DNA from: a virus
IMG/VR virus record: IMGVR_UViG_3300025646_000250
Span: 1 to 28,018 of that record
Length of the DNA stretch: 28,018 nucleotides
Strand: one strand, 5' to 3'
Within the stretch, counting starts at the first letter, position 1. Each line of letters begins with the position of its first letter. Made by a program: the position numbers and the translations under genes. Below, in pieces: positions 6,249-23,699 of the stretch. The notes under the pieces were generated by a model. The model was not told the DNA's origin. It ran no database searches and saw nothing but the letters and a program-made list of their open reading frames with translations.

Positions 6249-6445
6249 TATTTAGCTTTTTTAGTTACTCTTTTTTTTATTGATTTTTCTTCTTTAGTTT
6301 CTTTAATTGCTTTTTCTTCTTTGTACTCTACAGCAATACCTTTTTGCAAATAATGATTAGCAATTTTAGGATCCAAATCTAAAACATCACCTTCTTTACG
6401 CCATCCATTTGAAGAATAAACATCTTTAATTATTGTAACTTTCAT
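6248..6445 (-). CDS. Hypothetical 65-residue head-proximal protein
   Basis: The product starts MKVTIIKDVYSSNGWRKEGD, with a compact N-terminal part (residues 1-40) and a Lys/Glu-rich tail (KEEKAIKETKEEKSIKKRVTKK). Small proteins of the form K....F.....RKEGDVLDL....A..L..KGI.VEY followed by a charged tail are frequent beside capsid and connector genes, with no proven function. I reject the longer frame reaching 6511 because it would run through the terminator hairpin at 6478-6500; ATG 6445 lies 17 bases after a TATCTTTG box. It appears to be the first gene of the connector-lysis operon. Confidence 0.7.
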   Translation of the reverse strand: MKVTIIKDVYSSNGWRKEGDVLDLDPKIANHYLQKGIAVEYKEEKAIKETKEEKSIKKRVTKKAK

Positions 6446-6462
6446 AATGAAATAATTTATAG

Positions 6463-6470
6463 CAAAGATA
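6463..6470 (-). promoter_or_regulatory. Promoter-like -7 box for the connector operon
   Basis: TATCTTTG (6470-6463 on the minus strand) matches TAnnTTTG and begins inside the T-tract of the upstream terminator. It is 17 bases before ATG 6445. The position where a -33 TTG would sit falls in the terminator loop and reads AAT, so only the -7 element is present. Confidence 0.45.
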
Positions 6471-6500
6471 AAAAAAAAGCGCCACAGTAATTGTAGCGCT
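6470..6500 (-). terminator. Intrinsic terminator after the PD-(D/E)XK nuclease gene
   Basis: On the minus strand AGCGCTACA (6500-6492), a five-base loop ATTAC and TGTGGCGCT (6486-6478) form a nine-pair stem with one G-U pair, followed by a run of nine T. It lies 40 bases beyond the nuclease stop and marks the lower border of the accessory cassette. Confidence 0.85.
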
Positions 6501-6540
6501 CTTTCAGTCAAACTATACCAAACAAACTATGAATAAAATA

Positions 6541-6915
6541 TTATTCAAATGCAAAGTTATTGAAATATTTTTTATGTCTGCCTGTAATTGAAACTCTTAT
6601 TGACTGCATATTTCCATTGTTTTTAAAAATAAACCAACCATTAAAAAAATCACTCCAGACAGCAAAGAAGTCAACTTTTGTTTTTTCATAAGTGCATTTA
6701 TTGTTTTGTAAAGGTATTTGAACGTTTTTTATATATTCATTTTCTGGTGTTTTGGAAGATGATTTTATTTGAATTTTTAGGAGTCGATCACCTGTATCCA
6801 CTATACAGTCGTATATGGATGAATCTATAAGAGGCATGGACACCTGGTAATTTCTTTTCATGCACTCTGTGGCGAATAAATACTCCGCCAGACAACCTTT
6901 CTGGTTACTGTCCAC
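6541..6915 (-). CDS. Homing-type PD-(D/E)XK endonuclease, I-Ssp6803I-like
   Basis: From GTG 6915 the product is 124 residues and begins MDSNQKGCLAEYLFATECMK. The GxxAE motif at residues 7-11, an aspartate in SIYDCIVD and the QIKSS motif fit the PD-(D/E)XK fold with the third acidic position replaced by Gln (QxK), as in the cyanobacterial intron enzyme I-Ssp6803I and related PDDEXK_5 nucleases. It ends with a basic ITGRHKKYFNNF segment. A TTG at 7020 would give a longer frame, but that would read through the terminator at 6930-6958 and the 40-residue gene, so I prefer GTG 6915, which lies five bases after a TAATTTTG box. The gene has its own promoter-like box and terminator. Likely a free-standing mobile endonuclease, or a resolvase-like enzyme. 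Confidence 0.7.
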   Translation of the reverse strand: MDSNQKGCLAEYLFATECMKRNYQVSMPLIDSSIYDCIVDTGDRLLKIQIKSSSKTPENEYIKNVQIPLQNNKCTYEKTKVDFFAVWSDFFNGWFIFKNNGNMQSIRVSITGRHKKYFNNFAFE

Positions 6916-6920
6916 GAAAT

Positions 6921-6928
6921 CAAAATTA
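6921..6928 (-). promoter_or_regulatory. Promoter-like -7 box before the homing-type nuclease
   Basis: TAATTTTG (6928-6921, minus strand) fits TAnnTTTG. It directly follows the T-tract of the terminator at 6930-6958 and leaves only five bases to the GTG start, so a transcript from here would be leaderless or nearly so. No -33 TTG at 19 bases. Confidence 0.45.
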
Positions 6929-6929
6929 C

Positions 6930-6958
6930 AAAAAAAACCCCAGACATTATATCTAGGG
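6930..6958 (-). terminator. Intrinsic terminator after the four small genes
   Basis: On the minus strand CCCTAGA (6958-6952), loop TATAATG and TCTGGGG (6944-6938) make a seven-pair stem with one G-U pair, followed by eight T. It lies 26 bases after the stop of the 40-residue zinc-ribbon gene. Confidence 0.75.
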
Positions 6959-6983
6959 TAATTTAACAAATGAAAAACAAAAA

Positions 6984-7106
6984 TTACAGCATAAATGCCT
7001 CGAAGCAAGTAGAACTGCAAAACTCTTCGCCATAGCTTGGCTGATCACAAACTTTACAATAGCCCCCCTCGTAATTATCTGGTGGAGTATAATCTAAATG
7101 ATTCAT
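6984..7106 (-). CDS. Small zinc-ribbon-like protein (40 aa)
   Basis: A frame from ATG 7106 to TAA 6984 begins MNHLDYTPPDNYEGGYCKVC and contains CKVC at 18-21 (C18, C21) then FCSSTCF with C30 and C34. The CxxC...CxxxC arrangement would hold one zinc ion and resembles short zinc ribbons with an FCS..C second half. The start is one base after the preceding stop. It is the last of four tiny genes under one promoter. Function unknown; small treble-clef or ribbon proteins of phages often bind nucleic acid or host enzymes. Confidence 0.65.
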   Translation of the reverse strand: MNHLDYTPPDNYEGGYCKVCDQPSYGEEFCSSTCFEAFML

Positions 7107-7107
7107 A

Positions 7108-7266
7108 TTATCTTTTTTTAATTTCTTGTAACCTTTCTTGTATATCCCAGATCCTATCACTAAGATACAAATAATCCGCTGGATACATTTTACCAGTAAT
7201 TCCCTCGATGCTTTTTAAATAAAATTCAAATACATCTATTTCTCTTTGATCAATATTTTCATTCAT
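7108..7266 (-). CDS. Hypothetical 52-residue protein
   Basis: The frame begins MNENIDQREIDVFEFYLKSI and continues with MYPADYLYLSDRIWDIQERL, ending in a Lys-rich helix (QEIKKR). It is predicted soluble and helical with many charged residues. The start overlaps the preceding gene by eight bases, and the stop is followed after one base by the next ATG. I do not recognise a family. Its membership in the cassette at 6470-7682 suggests an accessory function. Confidence 0.6.
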   Translation of the reverse strand: MNENIDQREIDVFEFYLKSIEGITGKMYPADYLYLSDRIWDIQERLQEIKKR

Positions 7267-7405
7267 TTTGATAACGTATTAAAATAAAAGACAATAAAAA
7301 CATAATCAAAGCATCCCAAATAGCTTGGAATCTGTAGCCCAGAGAAAATCCCCAGGCAGCAAATCCCAAAATTAAAACAACCCTTACCTTTTGCTGAGTA
7401 TTCAT
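7259..7405 (-). CDS. Small membrane protein (48 aa)
   Basis: The product begins MNTQQKVRVVLILGFAAWGF and has two hydrophobic stretches, about residues 7-23 and 28-43, separated by a GYRFQ turn, then a short polar end (RYQNE). This is a plausible two-helix membrane hairpin. The start is two bases after the stop of the 54-residue gene. No family recognised. Small membrane proteins expressed from accessory phage cassettes are known for exclusion of other phages or for lysis control, but nothing here distinguishes these. Confidence 0.65.
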   Translation of the reverse strand: MNTQQKVRVVLILGFAAWGFSLGYRFQAIWDALIMFLLSFILIRYQNE

Positions 7406-7407
7406 TT

Positions 7408-7572
7408 CTAATATTCGTATTTATAAAATAAATATAAATTCAATACCATGTTCATAAATTCAAACGCTAATACATCAAATAAAATAGCGTATAAAATAAT
7501 TTTTGGTCTAGTCATTCCACAAATAACTTCCCATTCAACAGATTGTTTGATTTTTGAAATAATTTTATTCAT
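7408..7572 (-). CDS. Small hydrophobic protein (54 aa), first gene of cassette
   Basis: The frame opens MNKIISKIKQSVEWEVICGM and has a hydrophobic stretch at about 25-50 (LYAILFDVLAFEFMNMVLNL), so it may be membrane-bound, with a basic N-terminus expected in the cytoplasm. The ATG lies 20 bases after a perfect TTG-N19-TAATTTTG promoter, which makes this the first gene of a four-gene unit. No family recognised. A 60-codon open frame on the opposite strand here (7448-7630) is a shadow. Confidence 0.65.
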   Translation of the reverse strand: MNKIISKIKQSVEWEVICGMTRPKIILYAILFDVLAFEFMNMVLNLYLFYKYEY

Positions 7573-7592
7573 AATGTTTGTTTTAGTTTTAT

Positions 7593-7628
7593 CAAAATTA
7601 CAAATAGATTCGGAAATTCCAAATTTTT
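7593..7628 (-). promoter_or_regulatory. Host-type promoter of the accessory cassette
   Basis: Minus strand: TTG (7622-7620), 19 bases, TAATTTTG (7600-7593), a full match to the Bacteroidetes -33/-7 promoter. The -33 region is embedded in AAAAATTTGGAATTTCCG (7628-7611), which recurs with one change before the early genes at 22342-22325. The element contains a near-palindrome GGAATTTCC and could be an operator. Confidence 0.8.
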
Positions 7629-7651
7629 AAGGAAAAAAAATGTTAAACAAT

Positions 7652-7682
7652 AAAAAAGGGCATCCAATTAAGGACACCCTTT
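7652..7682 (-). terminator. Intrinsic terminator after the capsid gene
   Basis: Minus strand: AAAGGGTGTCC (7682-7672), loop TTAATT, GGATGCCCTTT (7665-7655), an 11-pair stem with two wobble pairs, then further T. It lies 40 bases after the major capsid stop and isolates the head genes from the cassette below. Confidence 0.85.
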
Positions 7683-7722
7683 AAATATAATTCTCATTAT
7701 GCTAATTTGCTATAAATACTGA

Positions 7723-8931
7723 TTATGCAGTTTCTAAAGCAGCTTTAGCAGTTGAGAAAGTACCTTGCACGATTGCATTTGGCTGGTAGTTAGTTAAAGC
7801 TACTCTTTCCATTGCACGCACAGTAACAAAATTCTTTTGGAAGTTATCGCTATCCTCTCTTGAGAACTCTACAGCTAGATTCTCACGAATCCAAAGCTGA
7901 GTAGCTTGGCGTAAATTTCCTACTAAGAATTTTCCAGCTGTAACAGCAGTATTTACTACGATTGGCACACCCATAATAGCTGGTTGTAAACCTTGGAAAA
8001 TTTGATTTCTCAAATATTCGTTAGCAGTAGATTTCAATAATACGATTTTGTGTAAATCTGTTGGGTTTAACAAAATAGTATCAGCTTGATAATTAGAAAG
8101 TGCTAATTGATTTAGAGCTACAGTAAGTACATCAAACTCATTAGCTGATTCAATGCCTAAAGCAAAAGATCCAGCTGCAAATGCAGTACCATCAGTAAAT
8201 AAACCATCAAGATTTGGTGATGATCCATCTCCATTTAAGATTTCATTATCCTCAACAGATAATACTTTTTGAGGGATACGAGCAGAAAGGTAAGATGAAA
8301 GTTGTTTTACATCATCTAACATTTCGCCAGTGATTCTTAAGTAAGTACCGATTTTCTCAACGTTTACTGAAGTAGCAACTAAATTGAAATCAGTTTGTCC
8401 AAATGCAGAAGTTTCAGCAGTTGCAGCAGCTCCATCAGAATAAGCTGATTCTTTAGGGAATCTAATTACTTGAGCATCAGTTGATCCAATAGGAATTAAT
8501 GAACGGATGTGGATAGATCTACTAGGATCATATTTAATTGAATCTACAACAGTTTCAGCAGCTACAACACCAGTTATATCAGCACCTAAACTCATATCAG
8601 CTTTAACTTCGAAACGAGCAGCATTAGCCATTCCTTTAGTCATTGACTCAATAGCGCCATTTTTTAACGCTTCATCAATAGCAGCTTTGAATGATTTAGT
8701 AGAAGCTCCAGAAAGAGTTTTCTTAGAAGCCATTTCCATTTCATCCATTCTTTTATTTAGAGCTTCGCTCTTAGACAGATAATCTTTAGAAAGGTTGTCG
8801 ATCTCAGATTTTAGAGATGATTCATATTCTCCCTTGGCGTTATCTTTTGCCTGGTTAAATGCCTTCTCGATTTTTTGGTCAACAATGTTTCCGATTTGAT
8901 CGAGTTGGTTTTTCAATTCTTCGTTCATCAT
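7723..8931 (-). CDS. Major capsid protein, HK97 fold
   Basis: A 402-residue protein beginning MMNEELKNQLDQIGNIVDQK. The first 75 or so residues are a charged coiled coil, the scaffolding-like delta domain that the prohead protease normally removes. The body has the order expected of Phage_capsid (HK97 gp5): an N-arm with SIHIRSLIPIGSTDAQVIRFPKE, then FNLVATSVNVEKIGTYLRIT, the NEILNGDGSSPNLDGLF loop, LLNPTDLHKIVLLK and a C-terminal NFVTVRAMERVALTNYQPNAI. I chose ATG 8931, one base after the protease stop, over ATG 8949, which would overlap the protease gene. A strong terminator follows. Confidence 0.93.
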   Translation of the reverse strand: MMNEELKNQLDQIGNIVDQKIEKAFNQAKDNAKGEYESSLKSEIDNLSKDYLSKSEALNKRMDEMEMASKKTLSGASTKSFKAAIDEALKNGAIESMTKGMANAARFEVKADMSLGADITGVVAAETVVDSIKYDPSRSIHIRSLIPIGSTDAQVIRFPKESAYSDGAAATAETSAFGQTDFNLVATSVNVEKIGTYLRITGEMLDDVKQLSSYLSARIPQKVLSVEDNEILNGDGSSPNLDGLFTDGTAFAAGSFALGIESANEFDVLTVALNQLALSNYQADTILLNPTDLHKIVLLKSTANEYLRNQIFQGLQPAIMGVPIVVNTAVTAGKFLVGNLRQATQLWIRENLAVEFSREDSDNFQKNFVTVRAMERVALTNYQPNAIVQGTFSTAKAALETA

Positions 8932-15226: not shown

Positions 15227-15464
15227 TATTAAATTTATTGTACAAAAATAGGTAAAAATCCCAGATCGCTTGTTGATAATCTTTTGGATCATGAAGTTTG
15301 CTACTTGTTTTGGCAACTCCATCTATAACATAAACTAAAATAAATTGACTTCCTCTTGGCTTAGGATAAATCTTAATGTCATGTTCATCACACCACTTGA
15401 ATGCTTTATAATGCTCATCTTGTGTGTATACTGATGGTTTTATGTATTTTTCTTTTTTAGGCAT
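15213..15464 (-). CDS. Hypothetical 83-residue protein
   Basis: A soluble basic protein beginning MPKKEKYIKPSVYTQDEHYK, with an aromatic-rich core (KAFKWCDEHDIKIYPKPRGS, FILVYVIDG) and a C-terminal helix (YQQAIWDFYLFLYNKF). Its start overlaps the primase-helicase stop by one base (TAATG), so it is expressed with the replication genes. I do not recognise a family; a replication or regulatory role is suggested only by position. Confidence 0.65.
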   Translation of the reverse strand: MPKKEKYIKPSVYTQDEHYKAFKWCDEHDIKIYPKPRGSQFILVYVIDGVAKTSSKLHDPKDYQQAIWDFYLFLYNKFNNDTN

Positions 15465-17146
15465 TAGAAAGGTATTTGATCGTTAACTACTGTAAATCGT
15501 TGTTTTTTTTCATTTATTGATTTATATATCCCCCCATCCTTAAAATCTGGAGCTATAGTAAATAAACCTTGTTGTCCATTTTCTTTTCGTTTTACTTTCT
15601 GAATATGCATTTGAACTGCATCAGATTTAAACATTGTAAGTTCACCAAGAGATCTATAAACAGTAACACAATTAAATGCCTTATTAAAAAAATCACTTGA
15701 TCCAGAAATATCATAAGGAGTTGGTATTTGATACCCCCCATCCTCTTTTAAAGCCATTTTTCTAGGATGCGCCACAAGAAATAAATGTGTTTTTGTTTGT
15801 TGACAGAATTGTGTTATTTTAGAAAGCATAACTCCTACATAACTATGATCACGTTGTGCTGAATGATCAAGCATATTCCATGGATCAATAACAAGTAAAT
15901 TAATACCCTTTTGAAAAACTAAATCTCGAAAAGCATCTAATATTCCATCAAGAGTTAAATTATCAAGATCTATTTTAACAAAATAAAAATGCTCCTCTAT
16001 AAATGCTTTTGTGTTGTTTAAATCATCATTTGTACAATTACGTTCATTTAGCTTATTTGCTAAACGTTTAATATGTCCCTCATAAGGAAATGACTCAGGG
16101 GCAAAAAAAGCAGTTCTATGACCATATTTAACAGCCATATTACAAGCTATTTGATCTACTACATCTGATTTACCAGAATTAGGTATGCCTGTAACAACAG
16201 TCCAGCTCCCTTCAAAATCAATTTTAAAATAATGGTCGCTATCGCCCAAGCCAATAGAATAATTTTTGATTCCATTTTGATTATAATTTAAAACATCATT
16301 CCAAATATCATGAACACTAACTACCCCCTCTAAAGGAAAGTGTTTTGCGCTCTTTAAATAATTCCGTAATACCTCAGCACCTTTTTCAACTAAAACCTCA
16401 TTAGCATCTTTAAAATCGCCAAATTCGACATACTTACATCTATATTGTCCGAATCTTCTAGCGAGTTCATTTCTAAGAGCTAATCCTGGTTGATCATTAT
16501 CTGTGCAAAGTATTATTTCTTTTTTATCTTTAAAATATTCCCAACAGTTGTCTAAATATTCTAATTTTTGATTTCCCTTTGAAGCTCCATTTGGCACAGA
16601 ACATACTGAATAAATTCCTGCTTCATGAAGCGATAAAGCATCCATCTCACCCTCTACAATGTAGATAGTGTCCATAGTGCCAATGTTATCCAACCCATAA
16701 AATATGAGTTCAGCACCAGAAACCATTTTAAAATTCTTTTCAGCATCTCGATACTTACAGTTTATTAAAACGCCTTCTCGAAAATAGTTAAAATTTATTG
16801 CCTTTCTTTTTTTCTGAACTTGAGGAAAAAATTCATTAGATTCTCCAACTTTCCAATGCGAAAGAGTTGCATCAGATATCCCCCTTTTATGGAACCAAGA
16901 TAAAGTACGCTCAGACAATTCTATTTTTATTTGAGCTGGTTTAATGTATTCTTTACGTTCTTTAAATTTTACATTGCCACTCCATCCACAATTATGACAA
17001 TTATAAACGCCTTTTTCTGTATTTATTGATAGGCATGGATCTTTTTTGTTTTTTCTATTGTGTGAGCATTTCGGACAAATCAGTTTTTGTTCCACAGAAT
17101 TTCCATTAGGAAATATGCCAATAGCTTCAAATTCATTTAGTATCAT
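15464..17146 (-). CDS. DNA primase-helicase (T7 gp4/Twinkle-like)
   Basis: A 560-residue bifunctional replication protein. The N-terminal zinc finger has CPKC (C24, C27) and CHNC (C50, C53). The TOPRIM primase domain shows IVEGEMDALSLHEAG with E165 and CTDNDQPG with D216 and D218. The C-terminal RecA-like DnaB-type helicase has Walker A GIPNSGKS (320-327), Walker B LLVIDPW (417-423) and the histidine in LVAHPRK (H460). It would unwind the fork and lay primers. It overlaps the upstream nuclease by four bases (ATGA). Together with the organiser gene two positions upstream it suggests self-loading of replication at the phage origin. No DNA polymerase is seen in the window, so the host replicase or a gene outside must supply synthesis. 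Confidence 0.92.
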   Translation of the reverse strand: MILNEFEAIGIFPNGNSVEQKLICPKCSHNRKNKKDPCLSINTEKGVYNCHNCGWSGNVKFKERKEYIKPAQIKIELSERTLSWFHKRGISDATLSHWKVGESNEFFPQVQKKRKAINFNYFREGVLINCKYRDAEKNFKMVSGAELIFYGLDNIGTMDTIYIVEGEMDALSLHEAGIYSVCSVPNGASKGNQKLEYLDNCWEYFKDKKEIILCTDNDQPGLALRNELARRFGQYRCKYVEFGDFKDANEVLVEKGAEVLRNYLKSAKHFPLEGVVSVHDIWNDVLNYNQNGIKNYSIGLGDSDHYFKIDFEGSWTVVTGIPNSGKSDVVDQIACNMAVKYGHRTAFFAPESFPYEGHIKRLANKLNERNCTNDDLNNTKAFIEEHFYFVKIDLDNLTLDGILDAFRDLVFQKGINLLVIDPWNMLDHSAQRDHSYVGVMLSKITQFCQQTKTHLFLVAHPRKMALKEDGGYQIPTPYDISGSSDFFNKAFNCVTVYRSLGELTMFKSDAVQMHIQKVKRKENGQQGLFTIAPDFKDGGIYKSINEKKQRFTVVNDQIPF

Positions 17147-17664
17147 AGTTCGTTTAGTTTGTGTAAAAATAAAAAACCATCAAGAGAAAGCAAATTTTTT
17201 AATTCTAATACATAAGATTTTACTTTTACATCTTTTAAATTTTCCTTATTAAATAATTGTTGGTTAGTTGCAAATCCTTTAAAAATATACATTGGATAAT
17301 TACAGTGAAAAAATGCAAATCCATCAACGTTAGATCTTGAATATTCTGGTGTCATTAAAGGCAAATCTTTTTCTGATGTTTTAACATCTATTGTGATTCC
17401 ATTCCAAGTAGCATCATAATTATCTGTACCTTGTATCTTTGAAGTATTTCCAATACTAAAATCTGGATGGATATTCATTTGCTTACAAAATATAAACTCA
17501 GCTCCGAATCCGATGATATTCCTGTAGAGGTGTTTATCATCATTGGCGACAGTACCTTTTCCATTTACGCCAGTTAGTTCTTTATTATCCTGTCTAGCTA
17601 ATGCTGTAAGTTCAACAATTTGTTGTTCTAATGGCTCCAGAAAGTATTTATCTCCTATATTCAT
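17143..17664 (-). CDS. PD-(D/E)XK-type phage nuclease
   Basis: A 173-residue protein with a plausible nuclease core: FGAEFIFCKQMN with E56, DNYDATWNGITIDVKTS with D84 and the D93-x-K95 motif. Spacing of E, D and DxK over about 40 residues suits the PD-(D/E)XK fold. The region 105-140 (PEYSRSNVDGFAFFHCNYPM) supplies further strands. It is tied by ATGA overlaps to the organiser gene before and the primase-helicase after, so it probably works in DNA metabolism at the fork or in processing recombination intermediates. The assignment is by motif, and substrate is unknown. Confidence 0.7.
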   Translation of the reverse strand: MNIGDKYFLEPLEQQIVELTALARQDNKELTGVNGKGTVANDDKHLYRNIIGFGAEFIFCKQMNIHPDFSIGNTSKIQGTDNYDATWNGITIDVKTSEKDLPLMTPEYSRSNVDGFAFFHCNYPMYIFKGFATNQQLFNKENLKDVKVKSYVLELKNLLSLDGFLFLHKLNEL

Positions 17665-18398
17665 TGAACCAATTTAAAATCTGTTTTTCCAAATTTCATT
17701 TTAAACTGATCGATTCTTCTTAGACCAGATTTTTTATTAGCAATTCTTAAAGTAGATAACGAGGTAGGTATTGTTTTCCAAAATGGATCTTTATTAGCTT
17801 GATTAATCAAAAACCATAATTGTCTAGGATTAACATCATCTTTTAAATCACACAGGCGAATTACATCAAGCCATTTTATTTTTTCATCAGTAGTTTTTGG
17901 TCTAAGATTTTCATCAAATAATTCCACAATATGCTCATAAGCATTTTGATACTTATCCTCAAAATCAGATACTTTTTTTCTTTGTTTTTTAGTTGTGACT
18001 ATATTATTATTTATATTATTATTAGAATATATATTACTATATATATTATCCTGGACATTTTTGTCCCCACCCCCCCCACAATTTTGTCCCCCCTGGACAT
18101 TTTTGTCCATAGGGTATTTTACTACAATATTTATACTTCTTTTAGTTACTTGTTTTGTCTTTTTATCATACTCAATAGCTACTTTTATAAACCCTAATTC
18201 ATGAAGCTGTTTGATCCACCTTGAAATAGTTTTAACATCTACATTGTATAATTCAGCAAAGTATTTGTTTTGCGCCCAGCACTTGCCTTCTTTGCCACTT
18301 AAAGCTGTAATTTCACCAAAAAGCAGCTTCGCATTAGGCGACAGTTCGTTATTATACCTAACCTGAGCTGGTATTATTGCATAGTAGTTTGGTTTCAT
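17661..18398 (-). CDS. Replisome organiser-like HTH protein
   Basis: A 245-residue protein with an N-terminal winged helix-turn-helix (residues about 18-75: LSPNAKLLFGEITALSG, NKYFAELYNVDVKTISRWIK, LHELGFIKV) of the HTH_36 type common in phage initiators. A low-complexity linker follows: residues 97-118 with the duplicated DKNVQ motif and Gly runs, then an Asn/Ile-rich stretch to 134. A conserved-looking C-terminal domain (about 143-245) includes IKWLDVIRLCDLK and QLWFLINQANKDPFWKTIPT. The layout of DNA-binding domain, repeat-coded linker and helicase-contact domain parallels lambda O and Gram-positive phage replisome organisers. The linker DNA contains inverted repeats and a very AT-rich stretch, which I annotate separately as a candidate origin. 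Confidence 0.8.
   Translation of the reverse strand: MKPNYYAIIPAQVRYNNELSPNAKLLFGEITALSGKEGKCWAQNKYFAELYNVDVKTISRWIKQLHELGFIKVAIEYDKKTKQVTKRSINIVVKYPMDKNVQGGQNCGGGGDKNVQDNIYSNIYSNNNINNNIVTTKKQRKKVSDFEDKYQNAYEHIVELFDENLRPKTTDEKIKWLDVIRLCDLKDDVNPRQLWFLINQANKDPFWKTIPTSLSTLRIANKKSGLRRIDQFKMKFGKTDFKLVQ
17999..18110 (-). other. Candidate phage replication origin (iterons plus AT-rich DNA)
   Basis: Within the organiser gene the 17-base string CCTGGACATTTTTGTCC occurs twice (18050-18066 and 18092-18108, plus strand) 42 bases apart. Its core GGACAAAAATGTCC is an inverted repeat (GGACA, four bases, TGTCC), and a degenerate third copy lies between (18076-18089, GGACAAAATTGTGG). Directly beside it, 18001-18049 has only two G/C bases in 49. 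Iterons next to an AT-rich unwinding element inside an initiator gene is the lambda ori design. Function is inferred. Confidence 0.65.
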
Positions 18399-18656: not shown

Positions 18657-19023
18657 TGTTCATGTAATTATCAATTATTTCTTTAGCAGTGTCAAAAGAA
18701 TTACACCACTTTGCATCCCAGGAAGCATTTTTAAGGCGTTCTAAGCAACTTAATTGATTTTCTGTTGGTTTATTATATCCAACTTTTAATTCGAGCGCTA
18801 AACCGCTTAAATTACCTTTTGATTTAAAAACTAAAATATCAGGCACTCCAGAAACTCCACCCAAGTATTTAAACTTGTAACGTTCAAATGGAGTTCTTTT
18901 ACCTTCATTTGGCACATGAATAGCAAAAGTTCCTGGATATTGCATTTGTATGTAATTCATTACAGAATTTTGTAATTTATCTTCTTTTGTTAAATATTTC
19001 TCGAATGGATTTTTTACTGCCAT
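18649..19023 (-). CDS. VRR-NUC domain nuclease
   Basis: From ATG 19023 the protein is 124 residues and consists of one VRR-NUC domain. Visible elements are an early helix EDKLQNSVMNYIQ with Q18, HVPNEGKR, then GGVSGVPDILVF with D62, LALELK with E78 and K80, and the late PTENQ with Q90. These form the PD...ExK catalytic set of the VRR-NUC branch of PD-(D/E)XK nucleases, which act on branched or recombination DNA. A start at 19062 would add 13 residues and lengthen the overlap with the DnaA-like gene from 47 to 86 bases, so I prefer the shorter form. Confidence 0.85.
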   Translation of the reverse strand: MAVKNPFEKYLTKEDKLQNSVMNYIQMQYPGTFAIHVPNEGKRTPFERYKFKYLGGVSGVPDILVFKSKGNLSGLALELKVGYNKPTENQLSCLERLKNASWDAKWCNSFDTAKEIIDNYMNNG

Positions 19024-19363
19024 ATATAAATCTGCCTGGATGTATTGTTTTAGGTAATTCATAACGCTTTAATGTCCAATTATTTAAGCGCATATCCTGT
19101 ACCTTTTTAAACAAAATTAGATATTTATTGTTAAAATCCTTATCTGTTCTACATAAATCAATGCAAGATCTAACGCCATGAAGCGCTGTAGCATGATCTC
19201 TGTCCATTGTTTTTCCAATAACAAATAAACTTCTATTAGTAAATTCTCTACATAATCTGTAATAAATTCTACGAGCATCTACAATATGGCGCATCCTTGA
19301 TTTTTGATTTAATTGATAACCAAAATAATTCTCCACTACTGTTTTTATAATTTGTAATTCCAT
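18977..19363 (-). CDS. Stand-alone DnaA domain IV-like protein
   Basis: A 128-residue protein whose first 70 residues match the DNA-binding domain IV of DnaA: VENYFGYQLNQKSRMRHIVD, ARRIYYRLCREFTNRSL, VIGKTMDRDHATALHGVRSC. The stretch DRDHATALHG is a close variant of the DnaA signature GRDHTTVLHA that contacts the DnaA box. There is no AAA+ ATPase domain, so it cannot be a complete initiator. The remaining 55 residues are basic and unrelated. It may recognise DnaA-box-like sites, compete with host DnaA, or recruit it to phage DNA. It lies two bases after the RecE-like gene. Confidence 0.85.
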   Translation of the reverse strand: MELQIIKTVVENYFGYQLNQKSRMRHIVDARRIYYRLCREFTNRSLFVIGKTMDRDHATALHGVRSCIDLCRTDKDFNNKYLILFKKVQDMRLNNWTLKRYELPKTIHPGRFIYGSKKSIREIFNKRR

Positions 19364-21913: not shown

Positions 21914-22101
21914 AATTTTAATTTTGATAGTTTGAAATTTAATTCTTTTAATTTTTGAATATCAGTGACTGTAAAACGACCTGGATATTGTAGTTTACGT
22001 TTTAACGTATCATAAGAATAGCCAAGTTTATTAGCTACATCTAATCTCCTTAATCCTAGGCGCTTTAAATCATTGATAAATTCGAGTTCAAATTGATTCA
22101 T
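21910..22101 (-). CDS. Small helix-turn-helix protein
   Basis: A 63-residue protein starting MNQFELEFINDLKRLGLRRL. A helix-turn-helix is seen at about residues 18-40 (LRRLDVANKLGYSYDTLKRK), then a short strand and helix (RFTVTDIQKLKELNFKL). Size and shape resemble Cro-like or phage early regulators. The ATG lies only four bases after the T-tract of the terminator-like hairpin at 22105-22133, so its expression and that of all genes downstream may depend on readthrough. It overlaps the annealase gene by four bases. Confidence 0.75.
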   Translation of the reverse strand: MNQFELEFINDLKRLGLRRLDVANKLGYSYDTLKRKLQYPGRFTVTDIQKLKELNFKLSKLKL

Positions 22102-22104
22102 ATT

Positions 22105-22133
22105 TAAAAAATAAAGGGAGGGTTCCCCCTCCC
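22105..22133 (-). terminator. Terminator/attenuator in the early operon
   Basis: On the minus strand GGGAGGG (22133-22127), loop GGAA and CCCTCCC (22122-22116) form a GC-rich seven-pair stem, followed by TTTATTTTTT. It lies eight bases after the stop of the leader gene and directly before the HTH ATG, with no full promoter in between, which suggests an attenuator that lets part of transcription continue. Confidence 0.85.
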
Positions 22134-22140
22134 AGGTTTA

Positions 22141-22278
22141 TTATTGATTATTACTTACAGAAGTAATTCTGTAAATCTCATTCTCAAGTGCATTGATTAA
22201 ATCTAAGTCAACTGCATATTCAGCATTTCCCCATAATTCATCTATTTGAGATTGTAATTTTTTAATTTGATTTTTCAT
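22141..22278 (-). CDS. Early leader gene, 45-residue protein
   Basis: The frame from ATG 22278 to TAA 22141 encodes a product beginning MKNQIKKLQSQIDELWGNAE and ending ALENEIYRITSVSNNQ. It looks entirely helical, with a heptad-like leucine/isoleucine pattern that could form a coiled coil. It is the first gene after the early promoter and is followed by a strong hairpin terminator, so it would be made in excess over the genes beyond it. No family is recognised. A very early host-directed or antitermination role is possible but unsupported by motifs. Confidence 0.7.
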   Translation of the reverse strand: MKNQIKKLQSQIDELWGNAEYAVDLDLINALENEIYRITSVSNNQ

Positions 22279-22306
22279 AATTTCTATTTGTTATTGTTTG
22301 ACTCTG

Positions 22307-22342
22307 CTAAATTACAAGTTTTTGCGGAAACTCCAAATTTTT
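22307..22342 (-). promoter_or_regulatory. Early promoter with shared upstream element
   Basis: Minus strand: TTG (22336-22334), 19 bases, TAATTTAG (22314-22307), one base from TAnnTTTG. The -33 lies in AAAAATTTGGAGTTTCCG (22342-22325), which matches 17 of 18 bases of the element at 7628-7611. Both promoters also share TTGTAATTT at the -7. The start codon of the leader gene lies 28 bases beyond the box. Confidence 0.75.
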
Positions 22343-22356
22343 TTGTAATTATTTTT

Positions 22357-22396
22357 TAAAAAAATCCCCAATTAAGTTTAAAACTATCATGGGGAT
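22357..22396 (-). terminator. Intrinsic terminator after the tail genes
   Basis: Minus strand: ATCCCCA (22396-22390), a 19-base loop that can itself pair (AGTTT with AAACT), TGGGGAT (22370-22364), then seven T. It lies 25 bases after the stop of the 425-residue tail gene and separates the late tail operon from the early promoter. Confidence 0.75.
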
Positions 22397-22421
22397 CAGC
22401 AAACAAAGGGAATTGTTTATT

Positions 22422-23699
22422 CTATTTTGCTACTACTTTATAGGTTGTTAATACATCATCATCTTGATTTGGTATGTGCATACGAATATCATATTGTGAT
22501 GCTTTAACATCAAATTTCATCGCATCAATGTAACAACTTACTGGTTCTTGTAGCGTATCAATACCAAAGTCAATCCAAATTTTATTATGAAGTCCTAAAT
22601 TAATATCACCACGATTTCTAAAAATACCTTCATATTTTGTCATATAATTTCTACTGTCATTAATTATTTCTTGAGTAATTATTTGCTCAATAGTTTTTAC
22701 AACAGAATCTCTTGGGCGTTCAAAATTTCCAGGTATTTTTCCAATATAAAATTCAGTTGATTTAGCTTGATTTGATAAAAAGTTATTATTTGATTCATAG
22801 ATCCCAGTAAATGTTCCAGCAAAACTTAATTGTTTTCTTTGTGCTACAATCTTTTTAAATGTAGCATCTACTGATTGTCCTATACCTAAATTATCTAAAT
22901 AAAGAGCAGTATATCCTCCAGCTTCACTATGCCCATCTTTACTTGGATAAAATATAATAACTCCTACATAAACTTGAGATACAGTTGAAGCACTTGGCTC
23001 ATAAGGTTTTATATCTAATTCGTGTGTTGCCCAGTTATTTGTTATTGCAGTAGATACTCTTGCTCCAGATCCGCCTATCAAAGCAGATGTATCAACCCAT
23101 TCTTCATTTTCAAAATGATAATATTTGGTTCCAGCAGCAAGAATATCTGCATTATAAGTTTCTTGAACAAAAAATCTAACATTAAAATTATAATTATTTC
23201 CTTCTGTACCATCTACATAATATCCAAAATGAAATTTATAAGGTACATTTGGTTTTAATAGACAATATTGATGATCATTTCTAATCATTTTATTATCCGA
23301 TAATTGATATGTTTCATCTACTGGAAAAGTACTTTTAAAGTATTTATTACCACTTACAGATTTAACATCCTGATCATCGTGTGAAATAATTTCATTATCG
23401 CCTAATCCTAAACTCTCTGTACTTCCTAAAATCCAATGGCGATTATCATATAAAAATTGAGCATTTTCATTTTTGAAATATACATAAGTCAAATCAGTAG
23501 AAAAATTAACTTCTTTTAGTGGCTTTTCATATAATTTTTGTAAACTACGATTTAATGGTACTACATCCTCTGGACAATTAATTAAAACATTAGCATCAAT
23601 AGTTTCTTGATATGTACCATCATAAGTAAAACGCTTATAACTAATTTGCTCTGTGCCTTGTCGTAAATAATCGGTTTGATATGTTCTTATTTGTCCCAT
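22422..23699 (-). CDS. Tail tip protein with carbohydrate-binding-like region
   Basis: A 425-residue protein without a known family signature. The region of about 150-275 is strand-rich (VPYKFHFGYYVDGTEGNNYN, VSQVYVGVIIFYPS) and closes with GYTALYLDNLGIG. The order 'strands ... Y.DN..I' resembles jelly-roll carbohydrate-binding modules. The C-terminal part (FTGIYESNNNF, FERPRDSVVKTIEQIITQE, PVSCYIDAMKFDVKASQYDI) seems to be a tail scaffold domain. It follows the 706-residue tail gene with a one-base overlap and ends the tail operon, where siphoviruses encode distal tail and receptor-binding parts. I infer a baseplate role; the glycan-binding idea rests on fold-like pattern only. Confidence 0.6.
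   Translation of the reverse strand: MGQIRTYQTDYLRQGTEQISYKRFTYDGTYQETIDANVLINCPEDVVPLNRSLQKLYEKPLKEVNFSTDLTYVYFKNENAQFLYDNRHWILGSTESLGLGDNEIISHDDQDVKSVSGNKYFKSTFPVDETYQLSDNKMIRNDHQYCLLKPNVPYKFHFGYYVDGTEGNNYNFNVRFFVQETYNADILAAGTKYYHFENEEWVDTSALIGGSGARVSTAITNNWATHELDIKPYEPSASTVSQVYVGVIIFYPSKDGHSEAGGYTALYLDNLGIGQSVDATFKKIVAQRKQLSFAGTFTGIYESNNNFLSNQAKSTEFYIGKIPGNFERPRDSVVKTIEQIITQEIINDSRNYMTKYEGIFRNRGDINLGLHNKIWIDFGIDTLQEPVSCYIDAMKFDVKASQYDIRMHIPNQDDDVLTTYKVVAK

Follow-up and report, generated by a model that had tools for sequence, protein, structure and literature searches.

The DNA that encodes the linker of the replication initiator in this marine phage genome very probably contains the sites that the initiator binds in order to start copying the genome. 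Our whole explanation, which we regard as highly likely on the strength of sequence comparison, is that positions 17990-18110 of the window (the entire stretch of 28,018 nucleotides analysed here) form an origin inside the initiator gene, with dyads that the initiator would bind, an AT-rich tract that would open, and a primase-helicase that would be recruited. By computation we establish the layout of these elements, constraint at the level of DNA, the spacing of the repeats, the exchange of the DNA-binding domain along with the repeats, and a C-terminal domain homologous to that of lambda O.

Results

The initiator gene and its domains

The features on which the analysis turns are the following, all on the minus strand.

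15464..17146 (-): primase-helicase (Toprim and RecA-like; PHROG 239, E 2.4e-84), probable client of the initiator
17661..18398 (-): replication initiator gene, 245 aa (PF13730 HTH_36, E 1.1e-15; PHROG families)
18120..18386 (-): winged-helix DNA-binding domain, residues 5-93 (HTH_36 match at 18-71; AlphaFold2)
18198..18236 (-): predicted recognition helix, residues 55-67 (AlphaFold2 helix; its class tracks the repeat class)
17982..18119 (-): disordered linker, residues 94-139, encoded by the putative origin (AlphaFold2 pLDDT)
17664..17981 (-): helical C-terminal domain of lambda O type, residues 140-245 (lambda O homology; AlphaFold2)
18095..18108 (-): iteron 1, GGACAAAAATGTCC, exact dyad
18076..18089 (-): iteron 2, GGACAAAATTGTGG, degenerate (a 76% copy) and in a different reading frame
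18053..18066 (-): iteron 3, GGACAAAAATGTCC, exact dyad
18000..18049 (-): AT tract, putative unwinding element, the lowest-GC 49-bp stretch of the window

The PHROG matches of the initiator are replication-initiation and O-like families, and its HTH_36 domain (PF13730) scores 57.6 bits against a curated Pfam cut-off of 25. A preliminary description of this DNA, made from the sequence alone, had placed the repeats between a DNA-binding and a C-terminal domain, and the AlphaFold2 model agrees: it shows a winged helix up to residue 93, predicted with high confidence (H21-33, H44-51, H55-67, E71-77, E84-91), then disorder over residues 94-139 (pLDDT <50 at 94-118 and 120-139), then a helical C-terminus. 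The iterons together with the AT tract spell this disordered linker.

The C-terminal domain is homologous to residues 217-264 of lambda O (hmmsearch 33 bits, hhalign probability 95.7). The profile of the N-terminal domain does not report lambda O, and the initiator has no Pfam match to RepA_N (PF06970). In a fold search with the initiator, no match reaches E <0.001 and most are generic winged helices; there is also weak and non-significant similarity to 4pt7 and 5kbj, which are listed under the database titles ‘Structure of initiator’ and ‘Structure of Rep-DNA complex’ and which we take to be RepA_N proteins. Searching solved structures by sequence with the initiator gives no usable match.

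The helicase that the preliminary description placed two genes later is present as this primase-helicase, and the order of the initiator and primase-helicase genes is the same in relatives. Over 15464-18398, the initiator is 41-61% identical to its counterparts, and the adjacent primase-helicase, in the same relatives, 69-86%. Phages from many hosts have a terminase and a capsid similar to those encoded here, and the genome contigs scanned for relatives yielded none.

Repeats in the window gene

Two perfect copies of CCTGGACATTTTTGTCC, offset by 42 bp, occupy 18050-18066 and 18092-18108; a third copy, at 18073-18089, matches at 76%. All three copies announced in the preliminary description are thus located, and on the coding (minus) strand each exact 17-base copy does contain the proposed dyad core, reading GGACA-AAAA-TGTCC. 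The counterpart of the degenerate iteron 2 in one homologue, L012, is a perfect dyad, GGACAAAATTGTCC. When up to 3 mismatches are allowed, these three iterons are the only sites in the whole window, all inside 56 bp; since about 3 matches are expected by chance in such a search, the signal lies in the clustering and in the two exact copies, not in the count. The duplicated DKNVQ motif noticed earlier is indeed encoded by the outer copies, while the middle copy is read in another frame and encodes GQNC.

Several codons used in the iterons are rare in this genome (GAC 8%, GTC 3%, CAG 17%, GGG 7.5%), and the chance of the observed codon spelling of DKNVQ is 3.2e-4 per copy. When the window gene is recoded synonymously, a repeat of at least 17 arises in 172 of 5000 trials (3.4%), and the same dyad appears twice in 45 of 5000. 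Taken alone, the window gene gives a repeat signal of no more than moderate strength; it is the comparison with homologues that provides the strong evidence.

Next to the iterons, on their C-terminal side as in origins of the lambda type, lies the 49-base stretch with two G/C bases that had been pointed out beforehand. Positions 18000-18049 are the only place in the 28 kb where 49-bp windows hold at most 2 G/C, and they code for a linker of Asn, Ile, Tyr and Ser.

Two further observations concern the composition of this region. The iterons at 18053-18108 are separated by runs of 4-8 G on the coding strand, as are those in the linkers of L023, L042 and L092; such runs occur in two unrelated repeat classes and may belong to the site itself, act as a spacer or fold into a G-quadruplex. 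In addition, a 15-bp unit of the AT tract (e.g. AATAATACAAGTATT) is repeated in L108, L111, L114, L124, L138, L140 and L143. This unit yields an NNTSINNTS-like peptide, which is found in many homologues, those of Firmicute phages included.

Conservation and spacing across homologues

The comparative set comprises 99 homologous genes, of which the 38 that are <75% identical serve as representatives. We measure synonymous divergence as differing codon choice at shared residues, pairwise, over a set made up of the window gene plus ten close homologues. It is 0.371 in the N-terminus and 0.344 in the C-terminus, compared with 0.065 in the iterons and 0.006 in the AT tract. The iterons lie inside the initiator coding sequence and are constrained at the level of DNA, as in an origin of the lambda type. 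In 92% of the homologous genes, the stretch of lowest GC falls at the equivalent position. The layout of the window gene is shared by L139, from c5, a cultured dairy Lactobacillus phage.

Across the 99 homologues, the linker holds 1252 repeat pairs and the rest of the gene 78, against 281 expected in all. The commonest repeat spacings in this set are 22 and 23 bp, and none falls from 28 to 41. Among the 38 representatives there are 33 instances of a 22 or 23 bp spacing; synonymous shuffling predicts 1.1 and, in 200 shuffles, never gives more than 5. At such a spacing neighbouring copies fall in different reading frames, and repeats of the peptide therefore provide no explanation for them. The in-frame spacings (24, 42 and 45), which are partly explained by the peptide, are left out of the evidence. 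Some homologues, namely L049, L052, L088 and L095, give no clear repeats in the search we used, a point against the origin reading.

We also looked for homologues that lack the repeats. Close homologues retain the iterons while the remaining gene diverges; distant ones mostly carry different repeats at the same place, and these match a changed recognition helix. The comparison of homologues thus supports the earlier proposal of an origin within the gene.

Recognition helix and repeat class

Among the homologues, a recognition helix of T-x-S-R-W type often goes with GACAAAAATGTC-type repeats, and an S-x-S-K-W helix goes with TTAAAGAAAAGTTTAA-type repeats. No crossed combination of helix and repeat is seen among the homologues, a good number of which belong to neither class. 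With the T-x-S-R-W type, the arms vary symmetrically round a fixed A-tract: GGACA/TGTCC, TGACA/TGTCA, CGACA-type and TTAACA/TGTTAA.

Three pairs of genes serve as natural experiments. Between L018 and L041, flanking windows are mostly 80-100% identical, and the segment from the recognition helix to the last iteron is 33-66% identical; L088 and L089 show a weaker form of the same pattern. L042 and L023 have the helix and iterons in common and differ in the C-terminus. In a phylogeny built from the C-terminal domain, every supported independent pair (4 of 4) combines a switch of repeat class with a switch of the helix residue R/K, a covariation that is not significant alone (p = 0.125). Moreover, because the helix domain is adjacent to the repeats, chance joint transfer is easy, and co-exchange by itself is less telling than it might seem. 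These comparisons support the view that the part of the protein that would read the DNA and its matching sites are exchanged together between phages.

Alternative explanations

The dyads might instead serve as operators for autorepression of the initiator gene or its operon. A winged-helix protein bound to its own gene could autoregulate, and both the constraint on the DNA and the covariation with the helix are compatible with any binding site. The sites, however, lie some 290-345 bp inside the gene rather than at a promoter; the AT tract beside the dyads is conserved as well; and the precedents at the same place, in lambda, pSK41 and Tuc2009, are origins. We thus judge operators improbable.

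It is also quite unlikely that the origin lies elsewhere and that the linker sites are accessory, for instance because replication starts via the stand-alone DnaA domain IV protein encoded at 18977-19363 (minus strand; PF08299 E 1.6e-12, without an AAA+ domain). The gene for this protein is upstream of the initiator gene, in an order conserved in 20 relatives. But the window has 3 DnaA boxes where 6 would be expected, which is no enrichment, and the two gaps examined, 6400-7800 and 22050-22500, contain no other tight iteron array. The genome is a linear contig and probably incomplete, and so another origin could lie outside it. Composition skew, which had been suggested as a check, speaks neither for nor against an origin here, being inconsistent among the window and ten relatives: a shift at four-fold sites occurs near the gene in the window, and the ten relatives show no consistent switch. 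As a separate matter, the first gap includes some 700 bp before the capsid gene (7021-7722) that lack a long coding-strand ORF, contain no tight repeats and match no Rfam family; the Rfam search as a whole returned no match.

Nor do we put much weight on the idea that the dyads are mRNA hairpins, with a 5-bp stem and an AAAA loop, that govern translation or decay. GGACA-AAAA-UGUCC can fold, and symmetric changes in the arms preserve a stem too. Yet the phasing of 22-23 bp has no reason in RNA, it is unchanged in the TTAAAGAAAAGTTTAA class, which forms no strong stem, and the repeat tracks a DNA-recognition helix; hairpins are accordingly a very remote prospect. Finally, selection on the protein for a flexible linker, with the DKNVQ duplication and the Asn/Gly stretch as its object and the DNA repeats as a by-product, could draw on the equally long repeats obtained by recoding this single gene, but it is barely credible given that the copies lie in different frames, that rare codons are fixed among homologues, and that spacings of 22 and 23 are impossible from peptide repeats.

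Discussion

Relation to known systems

An origin inside the gene of its initiator is a kind of system already known, with precedents in lambda O, in RepA_N plasmids (pSK41, pPR9) and in PLE satellites. In ori-lambda, iterons with dyads around an A-tract are followed by an AT tract, all inside gene O (PMC5043065, PMC7466680), and the annotated spacings of the iterons, 20, 24 and 23 bp, place them in several frames. The likeness to lambda proposed in the preliminary description is real, both in layout (iterons at about 20-24 bp in several frames within the initiator gene, the AT tract after them) and in the homologous C-terminal domain. The differences are that an HTH_36 winged helix here replaces the N-terminus of lambda O, that a primase-helicase lies nearby and no P-type loader is found, and that lambda has four iterons and the window gene three. 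By this sequence comparison, the lambda arrangement recurs here in another family.

In RepA_N plasmids such as pSK41, the origin is central in rep, the linker is dispensable and the N-terminus is a winged helix; in the Rep of the hybrid pPR9, a PF13730 N-terminus replaces the RepA_N domain and origin of pSK41, and the mini-replicon works (PMC5703833). The central origin (putative in our case), the winged-helix N-terminus and, for pPR9, the PF13730 family are shared with our initiator, which unlike these plasmid proteins has no RepA_N match and a C-terminus of lambda O rather than DnaD type, and belongs to a phage. Plasmid searches for a pPR9-like gene gave no recognised one among the matches. 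In PLE satellites, the DNA-binding domain and the origin have been exchanged together at least twice while the C-terminus was kept (PMC8263062). This joint exchange resembles what we describe, although the PLE origin is intergenic and RepA has a RepA_N domain. The rep gene of the lactococcal P335 phage Tuc2009 is annotated ‘contains origin of replication’, again an origin within rep; neither domain of our initiator, however, significantly matches Tuc2009 or TP901-1, the only link being a marginal N-terminal match to TP901-1. In TP901-1 rep, taken as a control for spacing, the method we used finds no 22-23 bp array.

Proposed mechanism

We infer that replication starts here in infected cells through dyad binding, AT melting and helicase recruitment, most likely in the manner of lambda. 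The N-terminal winged helix of the initiator would bind the three dyad iterons, probably as one dimer on each, and, the iterons being about two helical turns apart, the bound copies would line up. Together they would strain and open the neighbouring AT tract, and the C-terminal domain of lambda O type would bring in the phage primase-helicase, whose gene lies just downstream. The linker peptide, on this mechanism, would be mostly a by-product of the DNA it must spell.

We are somewhat inclined to extend this reading to HTH_36 phage initiators jointly, from marine to Firmicute phages: an origin made of iterons that are out of frame and in phase with the DNA helix would dictate the linker, and the recognition helix and its iterons would form a single portable cassette of specificity, passed between phages.

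Implications

The analysis gives uncultured marine phages a testable replication origin, and it provides a clear case of a DNA function dictating a protein linker. It also suggests a reason why initiators diversify faster than their helicases. The pairs L018/L041 and L042/L023 are natural domain swaps which, along with the symmetric half-site variants, could yield a recognition code for HTH_36. If the cassette reading is true, origin sequences would be predictable from protein sequence in hundreds of unstudied phages.
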